From NCBI GenBank assembly GCA_004335835.1, contig RWJK01001118.1, forward strand, positions 19,259 to 83,258: a stretch of 64,000 nucleotides of DNA, written 5' to 3'. A program made the position numbers and the translations under genes. Below the pieces are notes generated by a model that saw only the letters and a program-made list of their open reading frames with translations, was not told the DNA's origin and searched no databases. This DNA is from Scenedesmus sp. ARA3. Its lineage: Eukaryota > Chlorophyta > Chlorophyceae > Sphaeropleales > Scenedesmaceae. Positions 1-64,000 of this stretch are shown here, piece after piece. The first letter of the stretch is position 1. Every line of letters starts with the position of its first letter.

Positions 1-2631
1 GCCGCAACAAGGCTGCCATAGCTGTGGCCCAGCACTGCAGCGCTGCTGAGGCCGTGGCGGGCCAGCGCCGCCAGCACCACATCCACACTGTCGTCCACAG
101 TGGGGATGGTCTGCAGGGCAGTGCAATAAAAGGAGGGGTGGCATGAGGGTGAACAGTAGGGAAGAGGAAGAATGAGGGGGAAGGAGATGATGCTGCCCAG
201 GCCGTGGCTCGCCAGCGCCAGCACCACTTGCACGGAGTCACTCACAGTGGGAACGGGCTGCAGGAGGAAGGAAATGAGGCAGAGCATGAGAATGCACGAG
301 GACATCCGGAGGCAGGGGAGCAGAGTCGAGGTCAGACATAGCTGCATCGAGGGTATCTTCATCACATCAGAGGCAATACCATGCTGGCGTAGAAGCCGGG
401 AACCTCACTACTCCCTTGCACTCAACAAAGTCGTCACAAGTCAAACCACGGGTTGATCAACTGTGTGCCCATCAGCCTGCCGCTCACCCGCATCAGCCGC
501 ATCAAGACCACGGATCAAATCAAACGCTTTGAAGCCATTTCTCAACAATCTGCAGACCCAGAGCTCAGCCGAATTGAAACATGACTTCTGTTTTTCTTTG
601 AATCTTTGAAACAATATAACCTATTATACCAACAGGTCAAACTACTGCACAACATTGACCTGCCGCTCACCCGCATCAGCCGCATCGACACCTGCTTCCA
701 CACCGGCAGCAGCATCGGCTGCCCGGCAGCAGCAAGGTTCAGCGCCACCCCCAGGTACGGCAGCAGCCCAGCACCCACACCATGCAGCACCACCATAGGC
801 ACACGCGCTGCTGCAGCACCAGGCCCTGAACCATCACCAGCCGCCGCCGCTGCTGCTGCTGCTGCTGCTGGTGACTTGCCGGCAGCAGCGGTAGCGGCAG
901 CAGCAGGCCGCTGCTGCTTCTGCTGGTCCGACTTGCTGCGCCTCTGCTGCCGCTGCTTCCTGCCGCCAGGTTGCTGCTGATTGGGCCGGGCGTCTGACGG
1001 CAGCTGCTGCTGCTGCTGCTGCTGGCTGCTCTCCACCTTGCACTGCTGGTGCTCCTTGTCGGCTTGCTGCTGCTGCTGCTGAGGGTCAGGCAGGCCGTAC
1101 GTGTAGTATGCGCAGCCCTGCAAAGGCAGCAGCAGGGCTGCAGGCTCAGTGGCATGCAACGGGGTGTCACACATGCACACCAGAGCGGGCAGCACAGCCT
1201 GCATGCAGCACTTCAACGCCCCAAATGCATGCTGAAACAATCGAACACCAAACATGACATGCAGCTGCATCGCCTGCAGAGCCACCAGTCTGAGGCTGTG
1301 CATCTGCTGCTCAGCCGCGCTGCGCGAACCAGCATGCTGTGGCCCTGATAATGACATGCAGCTGCCGCAGGGTGCAAACAACCCAGGCAAAAAGCTTGGG
1401 TGCAGCTGACAGCGCCACGCACCAGCACGCTGTGGCGCTTGAAGCCGCAGCACGCGAGGATGGCCCAGCACAGCAGCTCGATGACCTCCATGACCACGTA
1501 GAAGAACAGCGGGCGGTACATGTGCGGTGTGGCACCTGCAACAGCAGCAGCAGCAGCAGCAGCAGGTGACATCAGGACTGGCTCAGCAGCAGGACCGCCG
1601 CATCGGGCTGTCACCAGGTGAAGCAAATAACAGCTGCCACATGCCACTGCCAGGTCAGAGGCAACAGGTTTCAGCCTGGACAAGTTTCTTCAACGGCCTA
1701 ATCATGCGTGCTGTACGGGCCGGCACCTCACCCCACAGGTGGCTCATGAACTTGAGGTTTGGGTTGTAGCCTGGCGGCAGCTGCAGGTTGTGCATCGCTG
1801 ACAGCTGCTCCAGCAGCGCATCCAGCTGCGGCATCAGGCCCTGCTGCGCCACCTGCTCACTGCATGGACATGAGATGTTCGTAGAACAGGGTGAAACGGC
1901 ATTCACCAATAGGTTTGGAAAGGAAAGCAGGAAGCAGCAGAAGAGTGAGACAGATGCAGGCACTGGGTTGAGAATGGCGCAGGTGAGGAAGCAGAAGCTG
2001 TGAAGAGTTACTGGGCTTGCTGCTCTGCTGCCGCTGCCGCTGCTCTCAGCACTGCCGCTGCAAGCACTACTTGACATGCATCACAAGACCTCGTCCCTGC
2101 CACACCCCAACGCCTTTTTCAACTGCTAGAAACATCCCGATATACTCACGGCGTCTTGAAGAAGATGGCAAAGGCCACAAGCTCCTTCACATTGTCATGC
2201 CTGATGAGATCATACGGCGCATCCAGGAACCACTGCGAGAGGTATCCCTGGATGTCATCCACACGCGCCATGTGCCGAAGGAATGACGCCACCAGCTGCT
2301 GCGGGTTGTAGTCTGCGGGAGGATCGTGCTGCTCTGGCATGGCATCCAGCTGCTTGGCAATGATAAAGAAGTAGTACAGAGCAAAGCATGCCTCTGCTGC
2401 GAGCTCTACTGCCAGCAGCAGCTTTGGGCAGTAGAGCCACCCCGCATACGCAGCTGCAGCGACCGGTATCAGGCCGATGATGCCTAGAAAAGTGCCAAGT
2501 AGGGCAGCCTTGGTGACTGACCAAACAACTGTGGACATCTGCAGTGGAGCCTTGGTTCTGGAAGCTGCCTGCTGCTGCGCTGCTCCATGCTGCTGCTGCT
2601 CAAGCTGAGCTGCTGGACTTGCTTTGCTCAT
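1..2631 (-). CDS. Alpha/beta hydrolase with N-terminal membrane segments, 3' end outside window
   Basis: Exons on the minus strand are 2631-2150, 1859-1732, 1535-1423, 1117-671 and 110 to the window edge. All junctions are GT-AG and the phases agree, giving at least 426 residues with the C-terminus missing. The start is the first true ATG of the open frame. Two hydrophobic stretches follow it (around GTFLGIIGLIPVAAAAYAGW and ACFALYYFFIIAK), so the protein is probably membrane anchored. Exon 4 has a long Q- and A-rich insert, then PMVVLHGVGAGLLPYLG, which resembles the HG oxyanion-hole strand of alpha/beta hydrolases. Exon 5 carries LGHSYGS, the nucleophile elbow G-x-S-x-G with the catalytic Ser. 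The Asp and His of the triad should lie beyond the window. The substrate cannot be told; an esterase or lipase role is family inference. Confidence 0.85.
194..262 (-). repeat. Decayed second copy of hydrolase exon 5 start with its acceptor
   Basis: On the minus strand this reads ...CTGCAG followed by codons for PVPTVSDSVQVVLA, closely matching the real exon 5 (TIPTVDDSVDVVLA, from 110 downward). It lies in the intron upstream of the real exon. The frame continues into unrelated sequence and lacks the GHSYG elbow, so it is probably not used. Confidence 0.75.
478..506 (-). repeat. Copy of hydrolase exon 4 end with its splice donor
   Basis: Plus-strand text at 478-506 nearly repeats 660-688, the last codons of exon 4 (MRLMR) followed by GTGAGC. 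It lies downstream of the real exon end inside intron 4. Together with the exon 5 copy at 194-262, both edges of the same intron are duplicated within it. Confidence 0.7.
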
Positions 2632-3253
2632 TGGTCCCCGATTGCTGATCTGCGATACAGGATGCACGCACTGCTGTTCCTGCAAGGGATTGCTGGTGCT
2701 GTAGCCAGGTCAATGCCTGACCAGGCTGGACTAGTACTGTTCAGTTGAGCGGGTTGTACTGCTGCGGGGGCTTGTGCGCTGCTACCCGAACGAAAGCTGC
2801 GTCAGTGACATTCCTGTAACTAAATCAAGGCCGAACTGCTAGCCCGGGGGATTTGCGCCGACGAAAACGCTTAAACAAGGAAGCTTGTGGGCAAGGCGAC
2901 AGAAGGTCGATGCATAAAACAGACGAAAGAGTGAAACAAAGTAGTTCTGTCAACTTTTGGACAATCGCAGACAGTACGAGGGCGAGGCAGTGACAGCGCG
3001 TGTGAACACAGTGGGACCCGGCCCGCCACGCAACAACTACCCTGCTTGAGAACGCTACGCCGCAGGAAACACAGTTGAGCCTGCATCTCAAAGCAACGGG
3101 ACAACAAAAAAGCGTTCAACAAGCTCTGACACCCAAGAATGACTGTCAGGTGTCAGGGGCGCTGGCAAGAGTCCGTGCATTGCATGACCGATCTATCCGT
3201 GTCGACAGTTGCAAATTGTTTGACCCTTTGTCCAGAAGCCGGAAGAATGGTGC
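2632..3253. promoter_or_regulatory. Shared region between divergent hydrolase and CREST genes
   Basis: About 620 bases separate the two start codons on opposite strands, so both promoters and 5' untranslated regions must lie here. Triplet repeats are sparse and no conserved reading frame is seen. I can identify no TATA box with confidence. Confidence 0.5.
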
Positions 3254-5597
3254 ATGGACGTATGCGATAGGCCCGCACTTCCGTACACAACAATGCTGGC
3301 TTCCCTGCTCCTTGAGGGCAGCCAGCAGGCTCGAAAGGAGATAGACTCGCTTGTGGGTGCTCTGCGAGCTGGTTTACCTTGGTTTTGGTCAGAACCCAAC
3401 AAACGCAGTAAGGAGGACCACCACCACCACCGGCATGACAGCCCGCAGCGTCAGCAAAGCCTACGGGCAGCACTAGTGTCTTCAGGCGTAGTAGATGGAG
3501 TGGGTATATGGAAGACGCGGCTGCTCAGCAGCGTGTCTGTCATACAGTTTGGTGGCGTGGCTACTGCTGCCTTAAGCTGCATGAGCCCACAGGTGTGTAT
3601 GCAGCTGCTTGGCCACGTGCATTGCTGCTGCAGGCACAGCAGGGACCGTAGCTTTTACAGCCAGGAGCAGCTGCATGTAAAGATCGCCGGCCATGTTGCT
3701 TGCCAGCCTTGCACTCGGCTAGGGTTCTTCATTGCCAAGCTGTCCGCATGGTGCATGCCTCTCTTGCCTTGCGCATTCAGTTGCATGCAACCACCGCAGC
3801 TGCGCTTATCAGCCAGTCCTGCCGCAGCGCAAACGCCATGTCGAGTTCCTGGTCGTCAGCAGCAGCGCATGCGTGGTGTGCCAATTACAGTGCAGCTTCA
3901 TTTCTTCTCTTTCTGCCCCTGCGTCAACCTTCATCATGCTTGCAGGGCCCTGGCTGCTGCGACTTCAACAAGGGAGAGCGCGTGGCCAACGTGCTCACCT
4001 CGCTGCCTTACGCTGCCATAGGGCTGCACTCCATACGGTGAGGCGTGCTGCTTTCCCGGCGCAGCTCCTGCACAATGCTGCAATGCCAGCTAGCAGCACG
4101 CGCATTGTCCATAGCAGTGGCTGCAGCCGTTATAACACCAGCAACCTGCTCAATAACTCACACCTTCCAACAAAATGTCCAGCGCCCCGAGCGTCAACAG
4201 CACAGCCTGTGATCTCTGTGTTGCTTGGCTGCAGGCGGCGGCGCACCGCTGCGGGCAAGCTGTGGGGTTGCAGCATGCTGGGCGTGTGTGGTGCCTCCAT
4301 CACGTTCCACGTCAGCAGCGGCAAGTGGCGCGACCTGGGCCGCAAGCTGGACTACTGGTGAGGTTTGCTTATGTGGATTTCCATCTGCGGGTTTTCATCT
4401 GTACTGGTTGCATGTGTTTTGGAAGCGGCGCCACCTGAACTACTGGTGAGGCGGTATGCGTGTATGTTACTGTTCGCATTTGCAGTTTGGCACTTGTAAC
4501 GTTTGCGCTCATTGCATCTGCCTTGCAAGTGGAGGGAGTTGGGCCCCAAGCTGGACTGCTGGTGGCTTCTGCAGAACTCGGTGCAGTTTGCAGATGCAGT
4601 TGTGGCATCTGCACTGCAAGCATCTGCACTTCTGCATACTGCATCGCAGAAATCGCCAGTGCTTACAGCTTATGTGCATGAAGACATACATGTGCCCAGC
4701 CTGCTGGGTTGCTTTGGATATTCAACTGTTCCTCTTGTTTGTGCCTTGCAGGATGATTGCTGCCAGCAGTGGGCTGCTGACGCGCGCGCTGTACCCCAAC
4801 CTGCCCCCGGCAGCAACAGCAGCCACCATCGCGCTGACCCCCTTCAGGTGCGGTGTGAGGCGACGAAACAAATAATGTGTTGCCAGCACTTTGTGGTACT
4901 GAGCAGGCGACTGTCACAGCGCCAGAGGCTTTGGTGCAGGGGAATTCAAGATAACATAAGCAGCTGAGCAGCTTTAGCTGATGTACAGGAGATGCATCAA
5001 CAAGAAAACGCTACCTGGCCCGCCGCTTTCTGTTAGTTCCTGCTTCCTTTTTTCTACACGTACATGCACAGTTCCTGCTTCCTTTTTTCTACACGTACAT
5101 GCACAGCCAGACGTGCAATCACATATGTTAGTTTCAAGCTTTGTTGTTATGATTTCTGCAGGCCCTTCCTGGTGTCTGCGGGCAACGCCATGGCCATGGA
5201 GTCGAAGTTTCTGCAGCGCTCCTTCGCCAACCCCGACCTGCGCGGCGCGCAGAAGCTGCACTCCGCAGCCTGCCTAGCCGGCATGGCTGTGTTTGCTGTG
5301 GAGGACGCCTCCGTGCCGCATGTGCCGCTGGTGCATGCCACCTGGCATTGCCTCAGTGCGCTGGGCACAAGCCTGGTCAATGCTGTGCTTGCTGATGCTG
5401 AGGAGTTGCACCCTGAGCTCACACTGGATGCCCTGGGAGACGGCAGCAGCAGCAGCAGCAGCAGGGGCAGGCAGCTGCGGCGGCAGCAGCAGCAGGGAGG
5501 GGATGGCTGGGTGGCGCAAGATCAGCAGCAGCAGCAGCAGCAGGCGTGGCAGCCGCCGAAGGAGTTTGATGTGGCTCCGCTTGGCATCCAGGTTTGA
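3254..5597 (+). CDS. CREST-superfamily (ceramidase/PAQR/Per1-like) multipass membrane protein
   Basis: Firm exons are 3946-4037, 4235-4357, 4752-4847 and 5162-5597, with GT-AG junctions and matching phases. They hold the CREST signature of proposed metal-dependent membrane hydrolases: an acidic residue near the start (CCDFNKGE), S-x3-H (SITFH), an Asp eleven residues after SSGKWR (KLDYW), and H-x3-H near the end (HATWH). Hydrophobic stretches lie between these motifs. A first exon from ATG 3254 or 3293, ending at an A|GTAAGG donor near 3402, is likely because it ends PWFWSEPNKR, like the tryptophan-rich start of ceramidases. However, its phase does not fit the 3946 acceptor, so a small exon or another acceptor is unresolved. 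After HATWH comes a variable Q-rich tail. The family acts on ceramide, GPI-linked or related lipids; the substrate here is unknown. Confidence 0.75.
4421..4565 (+). repeat. Two decayed copies of the CREST exon 3' edge within the intron
   Basis: The real exon ends near 4320-4357 with KWRDLGRKLDYW and the GTGAGG donor. A short remnant at 4421-4450 ends in the same TACTGGTGAGG. A longer one at 4525-4565 reads KWRELGPKLDCW followed by GGTGG. Both lie downstream of the real exon, in the same orientation. Confidence 0.75.
5035..5104 (+). repeat. Perfect 35-base tandem duplication in an intron
   Basis: Bases 5035-5069 are repeated exactly at 5070-5104; the unit runs from AGTTCCTGC to TACATGCAC. It lies in the last intron of the CREST gene, about 60 bases before the acceptor. 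Exact identity suggests a very recent event or polymerase slippage. Confidence 0.9.
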
Positions 5598-13706: not shown

Positions 13707-13767
<61 letters not shown>

Positions 13768-13817
13768 NNNNNNNNNNNNNNNNNNNNNNNNNNNNNNNNN
13801 NNNNNNNNNNNNNNNNN

Positions 13818-13870
<53 letters not shown>

Positions 13871-16266: not shown

Positions 16267-19200
16267 ATGCAGTTTCATAGCAGCAAGCCGTGTGCTGTGC
16301 GGTCATGCACGGCACAGAGGCTGCAGCTGCACCACTGCAGCAGCAGAGCTTTGCTGCCAGTGCGCCAACAGCAACATCAGCACCCAAGGCAGCACAGCAG
16401 CCAGCAGACTAGCAGCATAGCATGCCGTACTAGCCTAGCTGACGTGGGCCCCAGCTTCAGCAACGGTGGCAGCAGCAACAACCCACTGGAGTTGCTGCGA
16501 GTCACGCGTGATGTGCAAGTATGGGACGCGGCCCACAAGCGTCAGACCAACATTGCTACAGCCCAAAAGCACTAGCTCATGTTCAGTGCGCATCAGGAGA
16601 GTGTGCTGTTGTTGCCTTGCTGCAGCAGTGCTGTGTGTATCCTTGCTGCACGGACCAAACAACCCAGTGAGCTTGAGCATGCAAAGTCACACACCAGTAC
16701 ACACCTGCAAACATAACAGCACCCCTAGCGCAAGCTTTGGCCCGTCCTGCAAGGCATTCCATCCCACGCACACAAGCAACATGCTGTCCTGCAGGCACGT
16801 GCGCGGCTGATGGCAGAGGTCATGACGGATGGCCGCATGAGCCACTACAGTGAGCTGTACCAGCCCTGCCCAGTGGAGGAGTTCCTGTCAAAGGAGCTAG
16901 GGGTGTGGAGCTACAACGTGATGCTCTTCGCAGTGGCAAACCCTGCGCTGCAGGTGACTGGGCAGAAGTGTTGTTGTAGCTGTTGATGCACATGGCTGAG
17001 TCGGGTCCTGTTGAAGCAGCAGAGATGGCAGCGCTGATGCAGGTTCAAGTAGCAACACGTGTTGCAACTGTTGAAGGGCCTCAGCAGCGTTGGCGCACCT
17101 GAAGCTGCTTGAGGATCAGCAGCAAACAGCAGCAGCGCACGGCGCAGTGTCAGGCTCAGCTAGGCCATCCTGACTTTGGACAGCACTGCTGACATTTTGC
17201 TGCCTGGCTGCCCCCACCTCATCATCCACGCATGCCTTTGATCTGGACAGCCAGGCTCAACGTAGCGAGAAGTGCAACAGCAGGGACGATTGCAGAAGTC
17301 TAGCAAATTTGCTTAACTCCCAACATCTGCTGTCTGTTGGGCCCTCCCTGCCTGCGCAGGTCTTTGACCTGGAGAGCCAGGTGCGGCCTGCGGTGCGCAG
17401 CCTCAAGGCGGCTAACATCGACGTGACGGACATCTGGTTTGTCATCACCAAGCACCTGGAGATCCTCACGGAGCCCATCGCGCTGCAGCGCTGGCTGGAT
17501 TTTTTGTCACTGCAGGTGCGCAGTGCACAGCCGCAGCGCACAGGCCGCCGCACGTGCGTTTTGAGCATGCAGTGTAGGCAGCTGCTTGAAAGTCATCAAC
17601 CAACGGAGTATTGAGGAGCGCAGCAGATTTGCCCTTGGTTCTGCAAGTGCATGCAGGGCGTGCAGCGCTGCGCTATAGGCAGCTGGAACGCTGCCTGTCG
17701 TAATGCTTGCTGGCACCTAACAGCCATCCCTTCGACACCTTACCAAACGTGCTTCAGACAACGTGTAAATGGGCTTTTCTCACGAAGCTAATGTGGCACG
17801 TGCCTGCAGGCGCTGGACTCGCGGCACATGGCCAACTTCCTGCTCAAGGCGCCAGACGCGCTCTTCACCAGCTGCACGCAGGCGCAGGCGCTGCAGGTGC
17901 GCAGCAGCTGCCCCAGCTGTATGTGCGGCATGTGCAAGCACCTGCAGGAGCTTCACTGTGGTTTATGCCAATATGCCGCGTATGTGCGCTGTGAAGCAAG
18001 TGCAGGTGCGTGCCGCAGGTTGTGCCACGCCGCAACAGCTGTGAAGGAGTTGTCTGGCGTGCTTCTTTTTGTTTCAATCAACTACTCTTGGTGTACTGAT
18101 AGTTAACAGCATTTGTTTCTTTAACTTCTGCCTGGTCTGTTTCTTGCGCCTTAACAGGTGCTGGGCTGGCTCAAGGCGCTGGGCGTGAAGCAGGAGTACC
18201 TCTTCCCGCGCGTGCTGTGCCCCTGTCCCACCATCCTGCTGCAAGACGTCACCACCCACCTGCAGCCCATCGTCTCGCACCTCACCTCGCTCGGCCTGGA
18301 GCCGCAGCACATCAGCCGCATGGCATGCGTGCATCCGGAGCTGTTACTAATCTCCGTTGATGCGCAGCTGCAGCCGCTTGTGAGTTATCTAGAGGGCCTC
18401 GGCTGCAGCACCTGCCAGGTGGCAAGGCTGCTGCTGGAGGTGCCTCAGGCACTGGGCGGCAGGCCGCCACAGGCGCTGTTTGGCGCGCGGGTTGAGGCGC
18501 TGCGGCAGCTGGGCGTTGATGCGCCCACGCTGCGGCAGATGACAGGGCGCAGCACGGCGTGGCTGACAATGCAGGGCGCGCCAGCGGAGCAGATCAGCCA
18601 CCTGAGGCAGGAGATGGGCTTCAGCACAGAACAGGTGCGTGGGAGGGCTCATTGTACAGAGGTTATGGTTGGGTTATAAGGCAGTATGTTGCTGGTTTCT
18701 TAATATGTACCTGAAGCAGGAGCTGGGTTTTATGGCTGCGCATGTGTGGCAGGGCTCAGCATCGCTGCAAGGGTATGGCGGTGACGTTCATTGCTGCAAG
18801 GGTATGGCGCTATTTGCAGGGCCATGTCTGTGACGCAGGCATACATAAGGCAGATGCCTTCCTCCGGTTGTGTGCAGTATGGGCGGCTGCCGACAATTGC
18901 ACGCCTGCTGCTGCTGCTGCTGCCGCTGCTGCAGGTGCGGGCGCTGGTCACCGCCTGCCCTGCCATCCTATCAGAGAAGCCGCTTGAGCTGCAGCGCAAG
19001 GCCGACTTCCTCACAGCCACACTCAACATGGAGCGGGGCGACTGCCTGGCACACCCAGGCTACCTGGGAGCCAGCCTCATGCAGGTGGGCACACGTTTTT
19101 TGTTTGGAGATTGAACCGACTGGCTATCACTGCTTGCAACATGTGTTTGGTCATCTGGCAGTGTCTGGTGGTCTCTGCAGAGCCCTGTAGCACATGCCAG

Positions 19201-19544
19201 GTGCACACATGCAGGTGGGCACACGTTGCTGGCCAGCTGACCCATCTAGCAGTGTATAGTAATCACTGCAGTGTCCTGGAGTGATTGCAATGGATGTGCC
19301 GCATTCATTCGCCAGGGTACCTGGGCGTGAGCCTCATGCAGGTGGGCGCACGTTGCAACAACACTTGTCATTGTCAGCCAGCCGACGCATCTAGCAGTGT
19401 CTAGTGGTCATCACAGTGTCCTGGAGCAACAATTGCAGTGCACTTGCCTCATTAATCCGCCTCCTCTGTCAGGCAGCGTCAGTGCCACTGATCATGGCAT
19501 ACCGTTCAATGCTGGCATCCCCTGCTATGTGTCATATCGTTGCA

Positions 19545-19602: not shown

Positions 19603-20162
19603 CATTTCTCCAGGTCATTGGCCCGCGCCACGCCTTTGCAGTGTCCAAGGGCCTGGAGGCCAAGCTGCAGTCCCCTGGTGCCGCCTGCAGCAGCAGCAAC
19701 GTGCGCAGCAAGGGCGGCGCGTGGGGCTGGGACCTGTCGCTGCTGGTGGCTGGGGAGGACGTGGACTTTGCAGGTGGGTGGGGGTGGTTTTGGGCATGTG
19801 TATATCTATATGCGCTTACTTGTGCTTACACTGAGCGCAGCTGGATCCCTTGCAGGCCTGCATAGTCGGAGCTGAAGCGAGCCAGCAGCGGCTAGTGCTC
19901 TTTGGACATTTGACAGCAGTTGTGCGTGTGCAGCAGGCTGCTTGTTGCGGCTTGCTGTTGTGGCGCTGACTCGTATCTTGCTTGCATTTGACCACTTTAC
20001 ACTTTGTTGGCTGCCCCCGCAGACGCGCTTGGTGCCAGTGTGAACGAGTACGAGGGCTTCCGCACGGCCTTTGAGGAGGAGTACACCGCGCAGCTCAGCA
20101 AGGACGCGGCGCGCGAGTTCCAGGAGGAGCTCAAGAAGCTGGGCATCTACGAAGGCGCGTAA
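16267..20162 (+). CDS. mTERF family protein (organelle nucleic-acid binding)
   Basis: Exons 16267-16518, 16795-16953, 17360-17515, 17810-17896, 18158-18634, 18935-19084, 19614-19773 and 20023-20162 join in phase to about 526 residues. Repeats of about 30 residues show the mTERF pattern of paired helices with a leucine/proline signature, for example VLGWLKALGVKQEYLFPRVL, HISRMACVHPELLLISVD, VARLLLEVPQALGG and VRALVTACPAILSE. The first exon (MQFHSSKPCAVRSCTAQ...) is rich in basic, Ser and Cys residues and lacks acidic ones, like a chloroplast or mitochondrial transit peptide. Family members bind organelle DNA or RNA and act in transcription, splicing or translation; the exact role cannot be read from sequence. 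Exon 8 ends with REFQEELKKLGIYEGA and a TAA stop, and this end is repeated downstream. Confidence 0.88.
17235..17265 (+). repeat. Decayed copy of mTERF exon 3 start
   Basis: GCCTTTGATCTGGACAGCC resembles the true exon 3 start at 17360 (GTCTTTGACCTGGAGAGCC). It lies about 125 bases upstream in the same intron. The acceptor AG is no longer clear. Confidence 0.6.
19060..19430 (+). repeat. Triplicated exon 6 / donor junction, period about 130 bases
   Basis: The real junction (SLMQ then GTGGGCACACGTT) is at 19072-19097. Copies at 19204-19230 and 19316-19353 repeat CATGCAGGTGGGC-CACGTTGC, and the flanking text (GCAGTGTCT-GTGGTC, CCTGGAG) repeats too. This is a three-unit degenerate tandem array inside intron 6. 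Confidence 0.75.
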
Positions 20163-20462
20163 TCGTGCGGCGGGATGATGGCGCCAAGTCAGGGCGCCGG
20201 ATTACAGCGTGACGCGCAAGTTCCAGGAGGAGCTCAAGAAGCTGGGCATCTACGAGGGCGCGTAATTGCGGGGCGGGATTACGGCGCGTGGTCGGGGCGC
20301 AGGATCATGGCGTGGCGCGCGAGTTCCAGGAGGAGCTCGAGAAGCTGGGCATTTACGAGGGCGGCGGGATCATGGCCCGTAATTAGGGCGAGTGTATCAG
20401 CGAGGGATTACGGCACGACGCGCGAGTTCCAGGAGGATCTGACGAAGCTGGCCGTCGAAGGC
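20109..20462 (+). repeat. Four tandem copies of the mTERF C-terminal coding end
   Basis: The true end (20109-20162) is followed by copies starting near 20213, 20317 and 20422. Each begins with GCG-GAGTTCCAGGAGGA and, in the first three, goes on to KLGIYEG and a TAA or decayed stop. Unit length is about 104 bases. Divergence rises with distance from the real copy, and the last one is partial. Confidence 0.85.
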
Positions 20463-22596: not shown

Positions 22597-22686
<90 letters not shown>

Positions 22687-29393: not shown

Positions 29394-29660
29394 CTGCATG
29401 CCAGGTCAGGAAGCGCACCTCGCTATCTGAGTTGGCGGCACAAGTGCACGGCAATGTGCATTGTCAGCATGCATGCTGCACAGCAGATGTGTTGGAGGTG
29501 GGCTCAGCACGTGCAGTGCCGCATAATAGGTCACAATGCTCCTCCTGCAGCCAGCAGCACGCCCTCATGGATGACGCAGAAAGATGAGTGCTGCTCTGCC
29601 GATTGCTCGCTTGCTGCCTGGCACATGTTGCTGATGTGCAGCCAAACAGAAACACCTACC

Positions 29661-32442: not shown

Positions 32443-32739
32443 CTGCAGCCAAGCACATTCAGCATGTCAGGTCACGTATGACGGCAGCGTACCTGCATGG
32501 CAAAATGCATGCTACAGTGCATGTGTTCTTTGGGTGCAGCACATATGCTGCAACACAAGCGGCTCACCAGCACACGGTGCTATTCCTGCAGGCAGCAACG
32601 CATCAAGTCGGACGATGCACAAAGACAGGTGCGGTGCTGCGATTTGTTGCTGTATACAGGAGACCGCCAGCTGTCAGCCACAGGCTGCACACTGTGCAAA
32701 ACGCGATGCTTTGCACAGTGATATTCTGCCGCACCCACC

Positions 32740-33456
32740 TGTGTATGGCACCTGGCCGGGAGCATGGTGCAGCCATCTGCAATGCTGTGGCTGCCCCTAG
32801 TTGCCAGCAAGTTGAATGAGTACTGTTGTTGTGTGCTGTGCGTAAGCGTGTTTGTTGTTGCCCAGCTGCGGCAGTCTCTGACCATGCAAGGTTGCGCATT
32901 GTTCCAGGAGCTGCTGCTGCTGGACAGGCGGTAACTGCCTGCATCCGCAGCTGCGAGGATGTTCAGCCTGTGCAGCTGGTCAGTAGAATGCCTGCTGAAA
33001 AAGCAGCTGCAGTGCACTTGTGCCAGATTGCATGTGAGTTGAGGGCACAGCAACCTGCTGCTGCAGCGCAGCATGCTGCTGCCTCTAAGCCTGCTACTGT
33101 TGAACTCAGTCTATGCGCTCAGCATACTGGGTCACAGCCAGGTAAACTTGTTGAGATTGTAAGGCGTCTGTTCAAGCGATGGATCGAGGACTGTCTGCCT
33201 GTCGGATGCAGTGGCGTAACTGCTGTCGTGGAAAGACTGTCTAGCGCGGCGTTTAGGAGACAGCCATGCCTTAAATAGTTTAACCTTGTTTGGAAAATCA
33301 TCGCAGCTGGAAACATGATGGAACACATTGAAGGGTGTAACCTTGGGTATCAGCAAAGGCATTGCGTGTGGTGTGATGTTCAACCAAGCTTGTGATACTG
33401 GCTGATGAACTCTCTGCTAGATCACATGGCGGTGGTTCAAGTTGCAGCATTACGCG
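32740..33456. other. Upstream flank of exonuclease B, no firm gene
   Basis: May hold the promoter or a further 5' exon of copy B; a CGCAGCTGGGCAA stretch near 32860-32875 is shared with the copy A flank at about 29760-29775. No independent gene is seen. Confidence 0.4.
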
Positions 33457-38283: not shown

Positions 38284-38328
<45 letters not shown>

Positions 38329-42802: not shown

Positions 42803-45560
42803 GCCAAGCCACAGCAATGACGAGAACAGCAGCTCACAGGATTCGTCTGAGCGGTGTCGGCGTATCTCTGTTACAGGCATAGCAGCTGCAGTAGCAGCCC
42901 GAACGTACCAGCTCGCCAAAACGCCTGGCGCAAAGTGTGCAAGCAGCCCAGGGATGCCCCAAAACAGGGCCAACAGATCAGCAATGCAGCCCCTGTACAG
43001 CAGACTGAGCATGGCAGCAGTGCTGGTGTATGTTGTGGCATTGGCATGATCGCATGGCACTGCCTGGCTGCCTACGGCCACTCCTTGCGTGCAATCAGTG
43101 CTACGTCCTCTCACAAAGCAGTATACAAAAAAGCTCGATGCGTCATCAATGCAGCAGTAGAAACAGCAAGCATGCAGCAGTGTCAAGCAGGCGTAGCTCT
43201 GGATGCTGCTTGCTTGCTGCAGCGGATGCTGCAGCCGCAATTGGTATAGATAGAGGAGAGGCATGAGGAGCGGCACACTAAAGGCATCTCTGGACCCACA
43301 AAGGCATCTGCCAGCCATGGAGGCCATGCAGCAGGCAAGAGGCAGCTGCTGCGCATGTACAATGCAGCGCCTTCTGCAGGCCTATCCACCGCGAGCTAGC
43401 GTGTACAGCAAAGATGCGCATTCACTGTGCAGGTAACAATGTAAGCGTAAGTTGTATCGCTATCCTGCTTGCAAGCATCCAAATGTGATCTCACAACTGT
43501 CGACAAGCTGCCGCATGCAGTGCATAGCCGGCAGCAGGGCCATGACTGCAGGGGCTGCCATGCCCACTAGCCAGCAAGCTGAGCTGGGCCACACAGGTAA
43601 GTGTGGCCACAGCAGCGCCGTATGCACTGATATGTCTCGAGCACCACAGCCTAAGCTGAAGCCGACAAACCCTGATCAAGCCAGAAGCCAGTCTCTACAA
43701 TCTGTCAGTGCTTTCAAATACCCCGGAGCTGCAATCCCGCGGCAAGTGCTAGGGTAAGACATCACAAGGTGCATAACTGGGCATACACACGCCAGCAGGT
43801 GCGGCGCACGTGGCACACTGCCGCCAACAGTCAATGCTGTGCAACAGTGCAACACCGGCTGCTTTGCGACGCTGGAGGCATCAGGTGCTCCGTATGCAGC
43901 AGTTGCACAACAGACCAAGATGCGCTGCCGCTAGCCAGCGCTCGATCGGATGCCATGCCAGAAACCTTTTATGGTGCTACGCACCCGGACAGCACGATAA
44001 GCATTCCTGCAACCGCAACCTGTGTCCTGAGATAGAGAGGTAAACCCCATGACCAGCAAGCGCAGCAACAGCGGCATATCCACAGAGCAGCGCAAACAAC
44101 AAACAGTATGCAAGGCTTGCAGGGCCTGTGGCAGCGCCCTGCAAGCGAGTTGCCACGTGTGACATGCTGCCATTCCCACAGGCAGAGCTGTCAGGCGCAG
44201 CAAGCTCAAAGACCAGCAAGCAGGCAGCACATGCGGCAGTCACTAAGCATCAGTGAAATTCTGACATAATGTGGATATGTGGGCAACAACGGCTCGCACG
44301 GACCACCACACATGCGGGCCCATATCTGAAGGCAGCTTATCCCATCCCATCATAGTAAAAGCGTGCTGCACGCATGCCCCCATCACGTCAGAATGACCAG
44401 GCACTGCATGTGAGGTGCATTTTGTGCCATGTAGTACCCGCAACACGATCATTATGTGGAGCATTGGCGCCGACATCGAGTCTGGCAGCCACATGTTACA
44501 AGCAACGTGGCATGTCACTGACGTTATGCATAAGCAGCAGGCCAACAGGCGCCGCAGCATCACGGAAATGGCGTATTAGGAAGTGCGTGAAATGCACATC
44601 ATGTGAAGCCCACGATACACTACTCAGACACTTTTGTAGTCCAGAGCACCCTTGCTTCATCCTACTACTGCTACAACATCAAAAAAGCTGCATAGAGCAG
44701 CCACAACCTCCACACGCACCACAACCAGCACCAGCAAGCTCAGGCGGAGCTGCGCGGCCTTTCACTCGCCCTGCCGCAGCACCGCTGGCACCTGTATCTG
44801 TACACACACAAATCCCTGCCAAATGCATTGCGGTACTGGTGCCAAGTGCAGTGCCTGCATTGCCGGGCAGCCCACACACACACACGCAACACGGCGAGAC
44901 AACATGCACCAGTTCCAACACTGGGATGCTGCCACGCCGTGTGTTGCTGCAGGAGCACAAGAGACTCCTGAGACACCCAACGCCGCCTCCCAACAAATGC
45001 TTAGCACAACAACCAAGGGAATCAGAACAATGGCTGATACTACACAGCAATATGCTGCAGGGCGAAGCCCTGGCACCGCCACCAAACACTGACGCTGCAG
45101 TATCAGCTAGGGCTGCTGCTGGCGCTACTGCTGCCGACACCCACGACCTGGCAATCGGTCAAGGCATCAGCAGGCGGACGCGCGCCGTGTGCGTGCAACC
45201 CGCCATCTAGCAATAAAACCACGGCGCAGCAACAACTCTGCACAAACGGCGCGCACAAACACACGCACACATACATGCCGCGAACAGCAACGAAATGAGA
45301 CAGCAATGCATGTCCCCAAAGCCCTGCACAGCTGGCCCATGCATCAACACCACACCTCTGCTTGCAGCACTTCACCATTAATGCCCAACCTGCAAACCGC
45401 AAACACAGCACAGCAGCAGTATGCTTCGTCCATTCACACACGCGCACGCTGTCTGCAGCTGCCATCCAGCTGCACACACGCCAGCTCACAGCACGAACAC
45501 GGCCGCCGTCACACTGCGTAAGGACTCACACACATGCAGCAGCCCGCAGCGCAGCAGCAG
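42803..45560. other. Region downstream of the kinase gene, no supported gene
   Basis: Probably includes the 3' flank of the minus-strand kinase. The longest plus-strand frame (44374-45210) is low complexity without a domain and is likely antisense chance. No RNA gene is seen. Confidence 0.4.
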
Positions 45561-45581
45561 ACGCGCCACCCGCCGTCGCAG

Positions 45582-46076
45582 CTAGTGCTGCTGGTGCTCC
45601 TGTCGCTGCCGCAGCTGAGCTGGCGCATCTCATACAGCAGACAAACCAGATGAGCTGGCCGCTTGTGCTGGTGGCGCACTGCTGCTGGCGCACTGCTGCT
45701 GGCGCACTGCTGCTGCCAGCGCTCACCATCTCACGCATAAGCAGCAGCCCGCACCGCAGCAGCAGACGCGCCACCCGCCAGTGCAGCTAGTTGTTGCTGC
45801 TAGTGCAACACTAGTGCTGCTGGAGCTCCCTGTAGCTGCCGCAGCTCAGCTGGCTCATCTCATACAGCAGATACACCAGATGAGCTAGCTGCTTGTGCTG
45901 GTGGCGCTCTCGCTCGCTGGCGCACTGCTGCTGGTGCACTGCTTCTGCCAGTGCTCACCATCTCACGCACAAGCAGCAGCCGGCACCGCAGCAGCAAAGA
46001 ACTACCTGCCGTTGCATCTAGTGCTGCTGGTGCTCCCTGTCGCTGCCGCAGCTGAGCTGGCTCATCTCATACAGCG
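45582..46076 (-). repeat. Three copies of the kinase C-terminal coding end
   Basis: The true last codons (LYEMSQLSCGSDREHQQ to TAG) cover 46076-46018. Similar blocks of about 57 bases lie at about 45811-45867 and 45582-45638, beyond the stop codon, embedded in repeats rich in GCACCGCAGCAGCAGACGCG. The copies are therefore in the 3' flank. Confidence 0.8.
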
Positions 46077-49000
46077 CTGTGCCGCTGCCTCCCTCCTGCT
46101 GCATCTGCTCGTGCTGCCCGCTGCCTCCACTGAACCCAGAAGGCATGAGGTCTGCCATCATCGAGGGAGTCAGCTCATGGCCTAACTCCCCGAGCTCAGG
46201 GTGGCTGGCTGTGCCGGCCGCGCAGAGCGGCGCTGCTGCTGCTGCCATCTGCTGCGCCTGCTGCTGCTTGAGGGCATCCAGCTGGCCCGCCATGTCCTCC
46301 AGCTGCGCCACGATGGCATCGAACGACGGCCTGCGCAAGGAAATCGGCAAGATTATAACAAGGTAAGTTCGAGATGCTTTCAGGACTGGCTGCCGCTACT
46401 GTTGAACAAATCCAAAAGACAGCATCACGGCACGGGCAGCAAGGGCAGCTGGGCATTATGTTCAACAACGAGGGGCCACTCCCCGCTACCACTCCATCAC
46501 GTTCTCTCAGCTGTCAGCCAGGTCCTGCACCCAGCACATCTCCCTCAGCAAGGGCAGCTAAGATTTCTGCTCCACAGCAAGCAGCGCAACGAATTCCTTT
46601 CACGTTTGACAACTTCTGCTACAAGACCCCTTCTACTCTCACCTATCGGCCGGGTCCTGCGCCCAGCACATCTCCGTCAGCAACCGCAGCTAAAGCTCTG
46701 CTCCAGAGCAAGCAGAAAAAGGAATTCTTTTACACAACACCCATTCTCTGCCTCACCTGTCGGCCGGGTCCTGCGCCCAGCACATCTCCGTCAGCGCCTG
46801 CACCGGCTCGCAGCAGCCGCCAGGCCACGCGGGCCGCCAGCCCTGCTGCGCCACCTTGTGCGCCAGCATGCCCACCGGCGTGCCGCTGTAGGGGCGGCGG
46901 CCCGTGGCCAGCTCCCACAGCAGGATGCCGTAGGCGTACACGTCGCTGGCGCGGCTGGCGTGGCCGTGCAGCAGCAGCTCGGGCGCCATGTGCGTCAACG
47001 TGCCCTGTTGGCAGCAGCAGCAGATAGAGACGGCAGCACAGAGTCGTTCAGTGGGTGTGAACATGTTATGCGCGGCTGGCGTGGCCGTGCAGCAGCAGCT
47101 CGGGCGCCATGTGCGTCAATGTGCCCTGTTGACAGTACAGAAGCAAAAGGATGATTCAGTGGATGCGTACACGTCGCTGGCGCGGCTGGCGTGGCCGTGC
47201 AGTAGCAGCTCAGGCGCCATGTGCGTCAGCGTGCCCTGTTGACAGCAGCAAAAGGAGGCGGCAGCAGGAGGATGATGTTTTTGTGGGTGTGTACATCAGG
47301 TACAGCTGCTTCTGCCATTGCTGCAACACACACAGTGTTCCTGCACGCTGCAGTCTGCAACCAGCAGCGACGCACAATCAGAATCAATCCGCGCACACGC
47401 AAGCACCACAAACAACGAATGCCCATGCACAGAGACACAGTGCAGCGCCGTGAGTCATGCTGGCAAATCATCTGTCGATTCATGCCACAGCCAGCACAAA
47501 CACCTCGCTCACCATGTGCATCTGCGACACATGCGTGTCAGCAGGCCCCAGCGTCAAGCTCAGCCCAAAGTCCGCCACCTTGGCCATCAGCCCCAGCCCC
47601 AGCCCCACCAGCTGCCCCGTGCGCTGCACCTGCTACAGCCCACATGCCCATGCAGATCTAAGCAGTCTGGCTCCATCACGCACGGTAGCGAGTCATGCTG
47701 ACAACCCGTGTTTGGCGCCAAGTAACGACAAACGATCCATTGTAAACCACTCACCATGTGCATCTGCGACACATGCGTGTCAGCAGGCCCCAGGGTTAGG
47801 CTCAGCCCAAAGTCCGCCACCTTGGCCATCAGCCCCAGGCCCAGCCCCACCAGCTGCCCCGTGCGCTGCACTTGCCACAGCCCACATGCCCATGCAGATC
47901 TAAGCAGTCTGGCTCCATCACCCACGATAGCAAGTCAAGCTGACCTCTCGTGTTCGGCGCCAAATGCTGACGACTCGTGACAGCAACCCATTCCAAACAA
48001 CTCACCATGTGCATCTGCGACACATGCGTGTCTGCAGGCCCCAGCGTCAAGCTCAGCCCAAAGTCCGCCACCTTGGCCATCAGCCCCAGGCCTAGCCCCA
48101 CCAGCTGCCCCGTGCGCCTGCCATGCCCGCCGGCAGCAACAGCAGCGGCAGCAGCCTGCTCCGGCCACACCGGCAGCCGCGGCGCAGTGCGCTTCAGCAG
48201 CACCTGTGCGGCAGCAGGCAAGCATGAGGCATGCCAGAGGCAGGCAGAGTACACACGTCAATTAGAGCACCATCGAAACGTGCCAACCTGCTGTCACAAG
48301 CTCGCGCCTCAGCAGACAACGCATGGACTCTTGCCTTCAAGTTCCAATGCAGCTGGCTGCGGCTTGCTGCAACACCTGGCGCATGCGCTGCCACAAGCTG
48401 GCCCCTCAGAGCAAGCCATTCACACTGCTGGCATTGAGGTCGCCGTGCAGCAGGTGCTGCAACAAACGCGAACCGCTGATCTGACGCACTTTTAGATCCA
48501 CGAGAACATATTAGACTCACGTTGCTGGCCTTGAGGTCGCCGTGCAGCAGGTGCTCGCTGTGCAGGTGGATCATGGCGCAGGCCACATCGTGTGCCAGGA
48601 ACAGCACACACTCCAGCGCAGGCAGGCCCGTGGTGCGGTCGATGAGCAGCTTATGGTCCAGCGCCGTGCGCAGCGAGCCCTGCAGCAGCAGCAGCAGCAG
48701 CAGCAGCATGTGGCAGCGCACAATCAATACAGTGGATGCTGCCACTTGACTCTACAAGCGCGAATCTTGTGCTACGACACCTGGCCTTGCACATCTCCGT
48801 GGCCCCGCCCAGCGCACTCTGTACAATATACAGGCATTTCAGTAATATCAGCAAATCAGCATGCTGATCCGCGCCACCCACCGCATCGCAGAACTCCATC
48901 ACCAGCCGCAGCTCCCAGCCCACAAGCACAGGCTTGTGCTCAGCATCGCCAGCATCGCTGCTGCTGCTGCTGCCGCCGCCGTCAGCCCGCGCATGCTGCC

Positions 49001-57462: not shown

Positions 57463-60293
57463 TAAATATAATTTAAAATGATAGAATTTGCCGCCTCACC
57501 TGGCGGCTGGATCTGTGCGCGGCACATGGGGCAGGTGGCGGCCTTGTCGCGCGTGAGCCACTCGCTGATGCACTCCTCGCAGAATATGTGGCTGCAGGCG
57601 GCCAGGCAGGCAGGCAGCACATTGATTGCAGCTACAGTCGGTGAAGGACGTAGATGATGACACTCGACAACCAACGGCAGCTAACAAACAATGCAGCCAC
57701 ACAGCATGCACAGGTGCAGACAGCCAGTTTGGCTGAGTACACACACTGGGAACTCCAGCAGCGCCAGGAGCATGTCATTTGCATCATCTGACTCTGCCTG
57801 TCCGGTCATTGCAAAACACAGCAAGATGCTGTGTCCTGACTGGCGCAACTTCTGCTCTTCTTGTTTCTTTTCTGTAGGCGTTGGATGCCATTTGTCATCG
57901 TGAGTCATCTTGCGTGTCACCACAGGGCCTGCTGCTGACTCACCTGCAGTCGAGCCGCACAGCAGCATCTGCAGGCTCCTGCACACAGCAACCACAGCAG
58001 CAGCAGATGTATTAGCCACACCTTCTTCCCAGATATAACTCTTGGCTAAAACCCCCGTGTCAGGCAGGCAGGCAAAACACACCGACTGGAAGTGCAAAGC
58101 TGTTCCTTGCACCCCTGTCCATCCAACAGAGCACTGCTGCTGTTGTTGATCCGCCCAGCACCTCAAACTGCGCCAAACGCTACACCAGTAGCTCAACCCT
58201 CCCCGGCCCCTGCGCCAACCTCACACAAGATGCACCCTCTCCCACACACTCACCTGGCAGATGGGGCAGCACGTGCCATGCTCCTCATTGCAGCCCCCGT
58301 CAGCCTTGCCGCCGCAGTAATCCTTCAGGTATGTGCCCACCAGGGCCCCGCTGCCGCTGCGCAGCAGCAGCTTCGTGGCACTCAGCAGCAGCCGGCCCTG
58401 GCGCAGCAGCCCCCAGCCCTTGAAGGTGAGGTAGAAGCCCGCCAGCAGGCTGCTGAGCACGCCGTTCAACGTGCAGGTGACCAGGTAGGTGTACCTGCGG
58501 GCAGTTTCAAGTGAAGGTTTGATACTCAGCAGGCCCCCCGCCGTTGAAGGTGAGGTAGAAGCCCGCCAGCAGGCTGCTCAGCACACCATTCAGCGTGCCC
58601 GTGACCAGGTAGGTGTACCTGCAGCATAGTAACCATGCTTTGTTGTTACTTAGTTGTGATCATTTAATAGATGCCACCTGTGCGATCAAGTCACAAAAAC
58701 AGGCATGACAGAGCACCACGGAGGTGTGTTGCAAGTTATCATGCGGCTAGTCTGCGTCACAGAGATTCAGCTGACAGCACAGGCAGAGGCTGATGGCACT
58801 AGCATAAGAGAACCAGCAGTAGGAGGAAGATCAGTGCAGAAAAAACGCATCAAGCATGCTTTATAGCAGCTGCCTGGTGGCGCAAGTCTGCGCAGCCAAC
58901 GCATGCAGCAAGCACCAACAGCACTGCATATCCGTTGGCGCTGACTGGTAACAACCATGCTGCTGCTACTCTTGCGCTCACCACACGGGTATCGGCACCA
59001 GCGCCCGGTACACTGCCAGCACATACTCCACCAGCGTCAGCAGCCGCGCCTGGCGCCTGCTGCTCCTGCTGCTGCCGCCGCTGCTGCTGCCGCCGCGCCA
59101 CCACGACTGCACTGCTGCCACCAGCAGCAGCTTTGGGGCTAGCCCACAGAAGCGCACCAGAGAGTCCGCCACCAGCACCAGGAACGCCGCCTGCCACACC
59201 TGCGATAAAAAAACAGAAAGCCACCACCAGACAGTGTTGCGAAAACACCAGCAGCAGCCCCAGGCAGCAGCATGCATTAGCATCCCTTGTCAACAGCTGC
59301 GTCACATCCAGGAAAGCAAGCCATTGTCCTATCCGCAACCCAGCTGCCACAGCTTCACCTGGCTCCAGCAAACCACAGCACGCACAAACACAGCAACGCT
59401 CATATGTTGCAAACCACGATCACCTGCCACACACGCACACGGCAGCCATGCTGTGCAACTCAACTTCAAACGCAATGGCCTGACCAACATAGGCACCACA
59501 GGCGGCACGGATTACACATACCTTCACCTGCCACACACACAGCCAGCCGCACTGCGCAGCACTACTTCAACTGCGGCTGCAATGACCAACCAGTGAACAC
59601 CAACAACAGCTGGCCTCACCGAAATGGGCGCCTCTGGCGGCTGCAGCAGAAAGCGGCGGTACAGCCGCTGCCCTGATGTCAGCCAGCCCACCAGCGCCGC
59701 ATTCGTGGCAATGTACAGCACGCCTGCAACCATCTCGCCCGCACTGCTGCTGCCGCCGCCGCTGCTGCTGCTGCCACTGCTGCTGCCCCCTGGGCGCGGC
59801 TGCGTTGCCAGCTTGCGCACAAACTGGTTGGCTTTCACCAGGGAGCACAGCAGCCACAGGAACAGAAAAATTCCTGCAAGCAGGCACAGCGCAGCAAACC
59901 AAGATGTGCTAGAGATCACAATGCATGCTTAGTAGAGGACATGTCTGGCCTGATGATAGCTTGCCGCAGCCCATCTGGGCTGTTGCATACATCTCCTCCT
60001 TACAGGGTTACGATTGCAGGTGCAGCATGCTTCTGCTGCAAGCGCTAGTGCTGCCATAGATATGCAGCTGCTGCCTGAGGCATATCTATGGCAGCACTAG
60101 CTAGGCTAGCTGGTGCGTACAACAGCAGTTGGCTGGCTGGTTGGTGCGTGTAACAGCAGTTGCAGCTGCCTCGCACCTGTACAGAAGTGGTAAACAAACA
60201 CTGCAGCCAGTATGAGGAAGTATGGCAGCATACTCTCCACCCATTTGGCTATTGCCTGCAGCAAGTGGCAGCAAAGGAACAAGTACAACGCAA

Positions 60294-62452: not shown

Positions 62453-63680
62453 AGTAAGCCTGGAGCTAGGGGCTGGTACAGGTGCAGTGTCTCTCAGCCT
62501 GCTGGCAGCTGGTGCCGTGCACCGAGCCGTCATAACAGACATTCCAGACATGACGGCTCACCTGCAGTCTAATGTTCAGCACAATGCAGCACTCTTCAAC
62601 CCTGCGAGGGCAGTAGTGAAGCCTCTGCGGTGGGGAGAAGCAGCAGATGTGAAGGCCCTGGCACCGCCAGGCCCTCCATTCAAGCTGATCGTTGGGAGTG
62701 ACCTTGTGTACTACTCTTACAGCGAGGCAACGCCGCACTCGCGGCTGCTGCTGCTGGCCCTGCAGCAGCTGGCGGGGCCTGAGAGCCAAATATATTTGGC
62801 GCTCAGCTTGCATCACAACCCGCAAGGTGAGTGGGGCAGCAAGAATCTCATGTTTTTACTTCAGTTGTAAAGGTGTTTTTTGGCACTGTAGCGGCTGGCG
62901 GGGCCTGAGAGTCAGATATATTTGGCGCTCAGCTTGCATCACAACCCGCAAGGTGAGGGGGGCAGCAAAAACTTCTTCTTTTTGCTTCGTCTATAAAGGT
63001 GTCTGTTGGCGCTGCAGCGGCTGGCAAGGCTTGACAGTCAGATGTATCTGGGGCTTGGCCTGCATCACAACTCACAAGGTGAGGGGGCTGCAGAAAGATG
63101 TTAGTTGGCGCTGCAGCAACTGGCAGGGCCTGAGAGTCAAATCTACTTGGCGCTCAGCTTGCATCACAACCCGCAAGGTGAGTGGGGCAGCAACAATTTC
63201 ATCTTCCTACTTCATTTGTAAAGGTGTTTATTGGCGCTGTAGCGGCTGGCAGGGCGCGACAGTCAGATGTACCCGCTTGGCTTGCATCACAACTCACAAG
63301 GTGAGGGGGCTGCAGAAAGATGTTAGTTGGCGCTGCAGCAGCTGCCGGGGCCTGACAGCCAGATCTGCCTGGCGCTCAGCTTGCATCACAACCCGCAAGG
63401 TGAGCAGCAGCAGAGATTGTGAGGCGCGAGGTATGGTGACGGTTTACATCAGTGAACACACATGCTTGCGCAAGCGTGCTCCGGCTCATGCAGCGCGTGA
63501 CTCATGCATGCGTTTGCTGCTGCTGTGGCCATTCACACTGGGCAACACATCATGATGCAGAGGTTGAGAGCTTTCTGCGCTGGGCCCAGGAGGTGTAGAG
63601 GTGTAGCTTTACCCTTCACATGTAAAAGGACGAGTGACATGTCTGTTGCCCCAGCTGCCGCAGCACAGTAATCACGCACG

Positions 63681-63715
<35 letters not shown>

Positions 63716-63928
63716 CCCACTGCATGCCAATCCACTGCAGAGGTTGAGAACTTCCTGCGCTGGGCCGAGGAGGTGTGGGGCTTCAGCGTGCAGCGCATAC
63801 AGCAGCAGATCCCTGCAGAGTACAGGGTGGCTGATGTGCTGGTGGTGCGGCTGCAGCTGCTGGATGCTGGCGCAGCAGCAGCGGCTGCTGCACAGGCACG
63901 CGCCGGCACACTGGTCCGTGGCTACTGA
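61565..63928 (+). CDS. Family-16 (METTL21-like) S-adenosylmethionine-dependent methyltransferase
   Basis: Exons 61565-61662, 62129-62826 and 63741-63928 join in phase to about 327 residues. The SAM-binding glycine loop is LELGAGTGAVSL at about residues 144-154. ITDIPDM is the acidic strand-2 motif, and VGSDLVYY is the post-motif typical of lysine methyltransferase family 16 (METTL21, EEF1A and chaperone methyltransferases). The exon 2 frame has K/Q-rich and Ala runs around residues 50-130, before the loop. The last exon (VENFLRWAEEVWGF ... VVRLQLLDAG) supplies the end of the fold. The likely role is protein lysine methylation; the target is not known. Intron 2 is filled with copies of exon 2's end and one of exon 3's start. 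Confidence 0.83.
61995..62124 (+). repeat. (ATTC)n microsatellite before the exon 2 acceptor
   Basis: ATTC units with some CACT variants, about 130 bases. The array is bounded on both sides by TCACTCGCAGCA (61981-61992 and 62120-62131), the second being the real acceptor, so it seems to have expanded within a duplicated 3' splice site. Confidence 0.9.
62764..63404 (+). repeat. Six-copy array of the methyltransferase exon 2 donor edge
   Basis: The real end (LAGPESQIYLALSLHHNPQ then GTGAGT) is at 62764-62832. Copies start near 62888, 63010, 63108, 63240 and 63328. All five keep H-H-N, CAAG and a GTGAG donor, and most keep a CTGCAGC or CTGTAGC before them. Spacers are of two types: a long A-type with TAAAGGTGTTTNTTGG, and a short B-type with GGGGCTGCAGAAAGATG. 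This points to repeated duplication of multi-copy units. Confidence 0.9.
63546..63597 (+). repeat. Decayed copy of methyltransferase exon 3 start
   Basis: GATGCAG then AGGTTGAGAGCTTTCTGCGC ... GAGGTG then TAG. The real acceptor and exon begin at 63741 (VENFLRWAEEV). The copy has a stop and lies about 190 bases upstream in the intron. Confidence 0.85.
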
Positions 63929-64000
63929 GCAGCAGGCGGTGGAGGGCATGAGGAGAGGCGTGTGCAGCAGCAGGCGGTGGAGGGCATGAGGAGAGGCGTG
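63929..64000 (+). repeat. 34-base tandem repeat right after the stop codon
   Basis: 63929-63962 is repeated at 63967-64000 with a 4-base spacer; the unit runs from GCAGCAGGCGG to GAGAGGCGTG. It continues to the window edge, so there may be more copies. Confidence 0.9.

Follow-up and report, generated by a model that had tools for sequence, protein, structure and literature searches.

Exon edges have been copied repeatedly into neighboring introns of the green alga Scenedesmus sp. ARA3, where they persist in various stages of decay. The stretch under study, hereafter the window, comprises 64,000 nucleotides (nt), bases 19259-83258 of contig C796, in a genome of 87.3 Mb and 1567 contigs. We analyzed it together with 21 sample stretches of the same genome (194 kb; L-numbers below, given with the position), i.e. 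258 kb in total. The copied stretch consists of 22-97 nt of exon edge and the adjoining splice-site consensus; it recurs without inversion, either within the intron next to that edge or downstream of the stop codon. Recurrent local copying of splice-site edges, followed by tandem amplification and decay, is the explanation that we favor, at somewhat less than even odds (about 0.45).

Direct repeats no more than 1 kb apart were collected by near-diagonal BLAST self-comparison with microsatellites masked. The window contains 16 and the sample stretches 68 of the 84 clusters obtained. For one repeat in a KRR1 gene, the BLAST search returned a spacing of 124 nt and missed that of 62 nt, so that distances were recounted on diagonals; the diagonal scan gave 383 matches in the real sequence compared to none after shuffling in blocks of 12-mers. 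These numbers establish that the extra exon-edge copies with splice site, which a first-pass annotation of the window had reported, are real both in the window and beyond it. Cluster density is uneven, with 9-11 clusters per 10 kb in each of L011, L013, L016, and L017 and none found by self-comparison in L005, L020, and L022. Coiled-coil coding repeats (L017:1-4300) were excluded from most counts, which therefore refer to 83 instead of 84 clusters. Among them is an array at L017:194-4331 that encodes a QLDKAAADAAEYKAGFDK-like coiled coil in units of 42 nt and also shows higher-order copies.

Exon edges were assigned with home-made gene models from a joint two-strand hidden Markov model (HMM), which are imperfect: they fuse genes at 46-64 kb of the window and miss its methyltransferase gene. 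On this basis, 53 of 83 clusters were typed automatically as exon edge plus splice site, and nine of the 30 clusters without a typed pair are exon edges by eye or homology (window positions 45525, 46504, 25952, and 20105, three in L015, L016:3032, and L016:4027). Typing accepted matches of up to 170 nt with the junction at most 30 nt from the match end and an intron part of at most 30 nt, and it required a splice site in both members of a pair; 72 of 218 pairs were dropped for a match length >170 or an identity <78. The resulting 60 typed pairs (27 donor, 33 acceptor) share a median of 57 nt of exon at donors and 46 nt at acceptors, together with 5 and 9 nt of intron, respectively. Identity in the 27 donor pairs amounts to 91-82% out to position -30 on the exon side and declines slowly over ~90 nt. 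On the intron side it is 78% at +2 to +5, 47% at +6 to +8, and ~49% at +6 to +11, reaching background by +42; the 100% identity of the GT itself is imposed by typing. Up to eight extra copies occur at a single edge (L007, nine copies in all), which exceeds the one to five extra copies of the first-pass annotation, while the varied age of the copies that it described was borne out.

That exon edges are in excess follows from a comparison with random segments, run on the 258 kb. The 101 repeat pairs used, chosen without regard to splice sites, resembled coding sequence more closely than did random segments drawn from the same loci (P 1.6e-6). A splice site scoring at least 4 was present at the expected end in 58% of them compared to 35% of the random segments (P 1.4e-6).

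The kinase gene of the window (46018-48679, minus strand) carries copies at five of its eight exon edges, namely the k1 donor, the k2 donor, the k3 acceptor, the k3 donor, and past the k4 stop; self-comparison of the window revealed none at the k1, k2, and k4 acceptors. The exon borders are supported because the orthologues P0001 and P0002 (83-85% identical), judged to be transcript-derived from their names, hold each segment once, compared to three occurrences of some of them in the window. Named relatives of this kinase include proteins of Monoraphidium and Chlamydomonas. The features are as follows.

48521-48679, minus strand: kinase exon k1, delimited by P0001 and P0002; donor-edge copy at 48420-48458.
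47508-48203, minus strand: exon k2 (48006-48203) and its copies; the last 112 nt plus donor recur at 47755-47866 and 47513-47624.
46934-47249, minus strand: acceptor edge of exon k3 (46757-47004); upstream intron copies at 47165-47249 and 47070-47135, shifted by 231 and 121.
46504-46795, minus strand: donor edge of exon k3; downstream copies at 46638-46681 and 46506-46549.
45525-46075, minus strand: end of the last kinase exon with stop; past-stop copies at 45730-45868 and 45525-45638, unit of ~205 nt.

The k1 donor copy lies at a shift of 97 and is 92% identical, and the intron adjoining it is unrelated. Between the k2 segments, the exon parts show 3-5 differences per 112 nt, and the intron after the third copy is unlike the others. 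In the farther k3 donor copy (46506-46549), the donor GT reads CT. The past-stop copies are a plain tandem duplication, with the match extending through the whole unit. All changes read among the three k2 segments are synonymous; we did not adopt this bias as a sign of selection, which the pooled data support weakly. The metagenome protein P0241, encoded on a 924-nt contig, is 100% identical to exon k3 with a slightly different intron end and probably derives from the same species or a very close environmental relative.

A comparable picture was obtained for the KRR1 gene in L015, which aligns unbroken to the solved KRR1 structure 4qmf (E 9.9e-81), presumably the yeast protein. The best 120 of 3159 homologues cover 89-100%, and the best relative among the matches listed is from Dunaliella. 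Copies in the introns exist for each of the five edges that we were able to locate, i.e. a donor, b acceptor, b donor, c acceptor, and c donor; the c donor was assigned from the point where homology ends and a GT.

How much is copied besides the edge differs between clusters. In the best pair of each of the 83 clusters, the copies are adjacent (gap <20) in 31 and gapped in 52; the gap sequence resembles a flank in 13 of the latter and neither flank in 39 (13 and 40 of 53 in an earlier count restricted to gapped pairs and with the coiled-coil cluster kept). Judged as whole-unit tandem repeats, adjacent and alike throughout, 31 clusters thus conform, 13 do so partly, and 39 do not. Among 44 typed pairs with a spacing of at most 300 nt, the intron parts align in nine, are doubtful in three, and cannot be aligned in 32, and the divergence of the exon parts is the same whether the introns align or not (0.094 and 0.095). 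At L017:4957, L016:3633, and L017:7501, exon parts are 95-97% identical, yet the intron parts are unrelated. L014 contains two unrelated intron types, one common to the copies at 191, 677, 940, and 1077 and the other to those at 537, 789, 1206, and 1332, with an exon-derived divergence of 0.106 within and 0.122 between the types. This pattern is expected from amplification of an edge-only founder pair and constitutes the best case against plain duplication. At L011:4317 and L017:8432, the intron of the last copy is unlike those of the other copies. Because intron types are mixed in L014 and introns are unalignable at equal exon divergence, part of the copies seem to have begun as the edge alone.

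The spacing of the copies has a sharp lower limit that is absent from the first-pass annotation. Only 3 of 323 diagonal matches (duplicates removed) have spacings of 40-89 nt, compared to 98 at 90-139 nt, with arrays contributing several matches each. Counted once per cluster, the smallest spacing (n = 81) is below 91 nt in five cases and 91-142 nt in 52. The floor of ~91 nt is similar to the length of the shortest introns deemed credible (91 and 98 nt among 36), a rough estimate in which four shorter ones of 27-64 nt are regarded as false. A separate class with spacings of 12-39 nt comprises 15 matches, and some of these are perfect. Perfect tandem duplications of 21-38 nt were observed at window positions 5035-5106, 26270-26316, and 63928-64000 and at L008:335-393, and these apparently represent a young class separate from the exon-edge copies.

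In order to characterize the fate of the copies, we compared codon positions in the 49 of 60 typed pairs that are comparable in register, excluding 11 out-of-register pairs. The third-position share of differences was 0.60, where a neutral copy of a constrained exon would give 0.43-0.46 and two constrained copies 0.64-0.93; the synonymous share was 0.50, with 0.38-0.43 and 0.65-1.0 as the respective values. In 82 pairs with the frame set by coding score, the third-position share was 0.57 (0.62 with and 0.54 without an alignable flank). Pairs are overdispersed (P 9e-5). Some copies differ only by synonymous changes (L011:4228, 10/0; L016:17, 8/0; L011:9474, 5/0), and others decay freely, with one synonymous change of 10 in L015:4794 and none of five in L012:1051. 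Taken together, these codon patterns suggest near-neutral evolution on average, most copies being free and a minority apparently constrained.

The phenomenon extends beyond this assembly, because open reading frames (ORFs) of relatives show such copies as well. In the metagenome ORF P0023 (92% identical over 28% of the query), the same donor edge of the kinase recurs after 204 nt. P0257 carries an acceptor-edge copy, decayed and ~111 nt upstream (by eye, 40 proteins inspected), and P0059 possibly has a short copy at 54 nt. Internal repeats were present in four of 120 proteins, i.e. P0023, P0059, and two unrelated ones. The copies in relatives lie at other spacings. Within the 258 kb, three short inter-locus matches were observed, and the intervening sequences do not recur beyond short low-complexity matches. 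Three loci searched genome-wide were unique, except that the L017 query had four short, partial matches on contig C861, outside its intervening sequences.

According to the explanation we favor, the founding event would copy an edge alone, accompanied by filler of unrelated sequence. It may have been a templated insertion during break repair near an exon edge, with repair synthesis copying the exon edge and joining it via filler. Founder units would then be amplified in tandem, as in ordinary array expansion, and decay near-neutrally. Such copying may go unseen by selection while the exon-proximal splice site stays in use, and introns would thereby grow inwards from their ends. We consider it rather unlikely that the process itself is anchored to splice sites, such that edges up to the consensus are re-copied as intron-sized inserts of at least 90 nt (mode ~120) with unique filler, and introns, growing from both ends, carry near-consensus decoy sites.

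Several alternatives have to be weighed. Ordinary tandem duplication of units of edge and intron, with the intron half decaying faster, was the mechanism named in the first-pass annotation, and it agrees well with the 31 adjacent clusters, which include long arrays and past-stop copies (kinase with 242 nt, methyltransferase with 126, L007 with 126-131, and L021, a young plain duplication of a 217-nt unit at 99%). Minisatellite-type head-to-tail arrays are indeed common (25 arrays with a period of 91-300 by Tandem Repeats Finder, TRF); two-copy cases with unrelated filler are not of that kind, and the 39 clusters with a gap unlike either flank do not fit. Copies whose introns can still be aligned diverge somewhat faster in intron-derived than in exon-derived parts (means of 0.183, a lower bound, and 0.142 in 10 arrays; 44 copy-copy comparisons, L007 counted on one strand). 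However, the ratio is 1.6 in L007 and below 1 in L011, so that faster intron decay is a weak explanation of unrelated introns, and neither the equal exon divergence with and without alignable introns, nor the nearly identical exon parts beside unrelated ones, nor the two intron types of L014 are accounted for. As a general mechanism, we therefore hold it to be doubtful, though a serious competitor. Gene conversion keeping the exon parts alike was also considered; equal rates in most arrays make it less likely. The view that selection keeps the copies as functional exon edges, either alternative or poison, gains from those with synonymous changes only, the k2 segments among them, and from copy donor sites that score close to the real ones (5.49 compared to 5.81), although typing demanded a splice site in both. 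Other copies decay freely, however, spacings are not biased to multiples of three (14/18/14), and among the pairs read by eye copies mostly have a single splice site, where tandem duplication of a mutually exclusive exon would give both, although the frequency of CAG makes an acceptor ahead of a donor-edge copy possible in some cases; we thus regard selection for function as unlikely overall.

An assembly artefact, in which divergent haplotypes or strains were joined end to end, would match the synonymous excess, and a floor as sharp as 91 nt looks technical. It is nevertheless very unlikely, given the in-frame stops, frame-shifting gap, or lost splice site seen by eye in some copies, the nine copies in L007, the lack of a second genomic version at the three loci searched, the distance of at least 3 kb between any window cluster and a run of N, and the copies in ORFs of relatives from other assemblies. 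Recursive or self-correcting splicing, in which the segment between two sites is itself spliceable, could explain the minimum length, since the floor is close to the shortest credible introns, and exons starting with GT are somewhat commoner at copied acceptor edges (11/33 compared to 43/228 other predicted exons, P 0.07). However, GT is not found at the start of most acceptor-edge exons, and exons ending in AG are no commoner at copied donor edges (13/27 compared to 98/230, P 0.68), so that neither AG nor GT at duplicated edges is significantly above other predicted exons, and we give this possibility little credence. The least probable source, in our view, is an introner or another mobile element that inserts at splice sites and duplicates a long target: unrelated sequence between copies and a minimum spacing would be expected of it, but the intervening sequences are unique in the 258 kb and, bar short partial matches, at the three loci searched genome-wide. 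The first-pass annotation had noted that known introner elements insert as new introns and do not copy exon edges, and that no named element was known to it to do so.

Recurrent edge copying itself faces several difficulties. The 31 adjacent clusters look like plain tandem duplication, and both the limits of typing and the choice of gapped pairs favor edge-only pairs. The 91-nt floor is not predicted by it, and our searches found no source of the filler. The third-position excess and the overdispersion suggest that some copies are constrained. In the relatives' DNA that was compared, no locus was seen in its pre-copy state. Any better explanation must meet two facts, i.e. that copying stops near the splice site and that spacings start at ~91 nt.

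In addition to the kinase gene, copies were assigned to the methyltransferase, the GH1 gene, the gene with the mTERF ORF, and genes at 20.1, 0.5, 4.3, and 58.4 kb, the latter four by ab initio typing or translation only.

62755-63404, plus strand: donor edge of a Methyltransf_16 lysine methyltransferase; edge at 62826, copies at 62952, 63078, 63177, 63300, and 63399.
63556-63776, plus strand: acceptor-edge copy (63556-63596) upstream of the putative real edge (63736-63776), placed from the coding flank.
24124-24254, plus strand: GH1 acceptor edge; copy 24124-24156 upstream of the real 24222-24254 (Pfam GH1 at 24142-24513, E 3.1e-20).
25952-26263, plus strand: GH1 donor edge 25952-26021 with copy 26194-26263, identified by eye, not typed automatically.
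19055-19461, plus strand: donor edge 19055-19097 downstream of the mTERF ORF, copy 19312-19354; further repeat 19232-19313/19377-19461.
20105-20462, plus strand: end of a putative C-terminal exon with stop; ~3.3 repeats of period 103 past the stop, frame from translation only.
58404-58622, minus strand: predicted acceptor edge 58404-58498 with upstream copy 58527-58622, ab initio only.
4321-4564, plus strand: predicted donor edge 4321-4360 with copy 4525-4564, ab initio only.
476-692, minus strand: predicted donor edge 659-692 with copy 476-509, ab initio only.

In all, about eight genes of the window carry copies, compared to at least eight of twelve in the first-pass annotation. The SET-ARM case of the latter was not confirmed, as no cluster is listed between 26.3 and 45.5 kb at the threshold used. 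Pfam analysis of 20 ORFs supported the labels kinase, GH1, mTERF (18155-18676, E 1.7e-13), Arm, and Methyltransf_16, with a further weak GH1 match on 26657-27583 (E 0.0036). It returned no hydrolase or RING family in these 20 ORFs, contrary to the first labels, and CREST was not searched for otherwise. A repeat at 10338/10731 lies inside predicted coding sequence, which counts against the first-pass annotation. According to TRF, CAG/CTG triplet repeats are abundant in the window (e.g. 13708-13870, 22598-22686, and 38285-38326); several are glutamine runs in predicted exons, and the run of N at 13768-13817 sits within such a repeat. The predicted gene 28126-32776 (minus strand) has two halves that are 67% alike in DNA (28156-29099/30984-31923), one of which matches DNA_pol_A_exo1; either a domain or a gene was probably duplicated in tandem there.

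Patch-mediated break repair in rice is a related system of small duplications. The copies described here resemble break-associated small tandem duplications in being short, local, and direct; neither a 90-nt floor nor splice-site anchoring is known to us for the latter. Small tandem duplications at DNA breaks have been connected with Pol alpha-primase in one report (PMC8355091). In the potato gene for an RNA-dependent RNA polymerase (RdRp), a tandem genomic duplication across an intron-exon boundary, with the intron part copied as well, made a new spliced intron (PMC4974935). As in that case, the direct duplicate crosses a splice junction with its splice signals and the copies stand side by side; in contrast to what that source describes, copies are widespread here, about half contain little beyond edge and consensus, and no new intron is evident. 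Intron gain via duplicated proto-splice sites, as outlined in PMC3443670 and, for Drosophila, PMC2891723, shares the local direct duplication of exon sequence beside introns. This route depends on AG/GT within the exon sequence that is duplicated, and its product is a new intron, whereas AG/GT, on which this Rogers model relies, is not the rule here. Introners, reported in green algae among others as dispersed copies in many genes (PMC9860276), likewise make intron sequence grow, whereas the inserts found here are unique within what was searched.

The literature searched contains no report of genome-wide exon-edge copying, which is not proof of its absence, and our findings point to a recurrent, little-described way of intron growth. 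Gene annotation of such genomes will be wrong where copies are read as exons, as illustrated by the kinase models, in which our HMM gene finder took copies for exons. The spacing floor provides a sharp, testable fact. Overall, the copies represent many natural experiments within one genome on how introns lengthen or arise, and they also bear on how the spliceosome chooses between near-identical splice sites ~100 nt apart.

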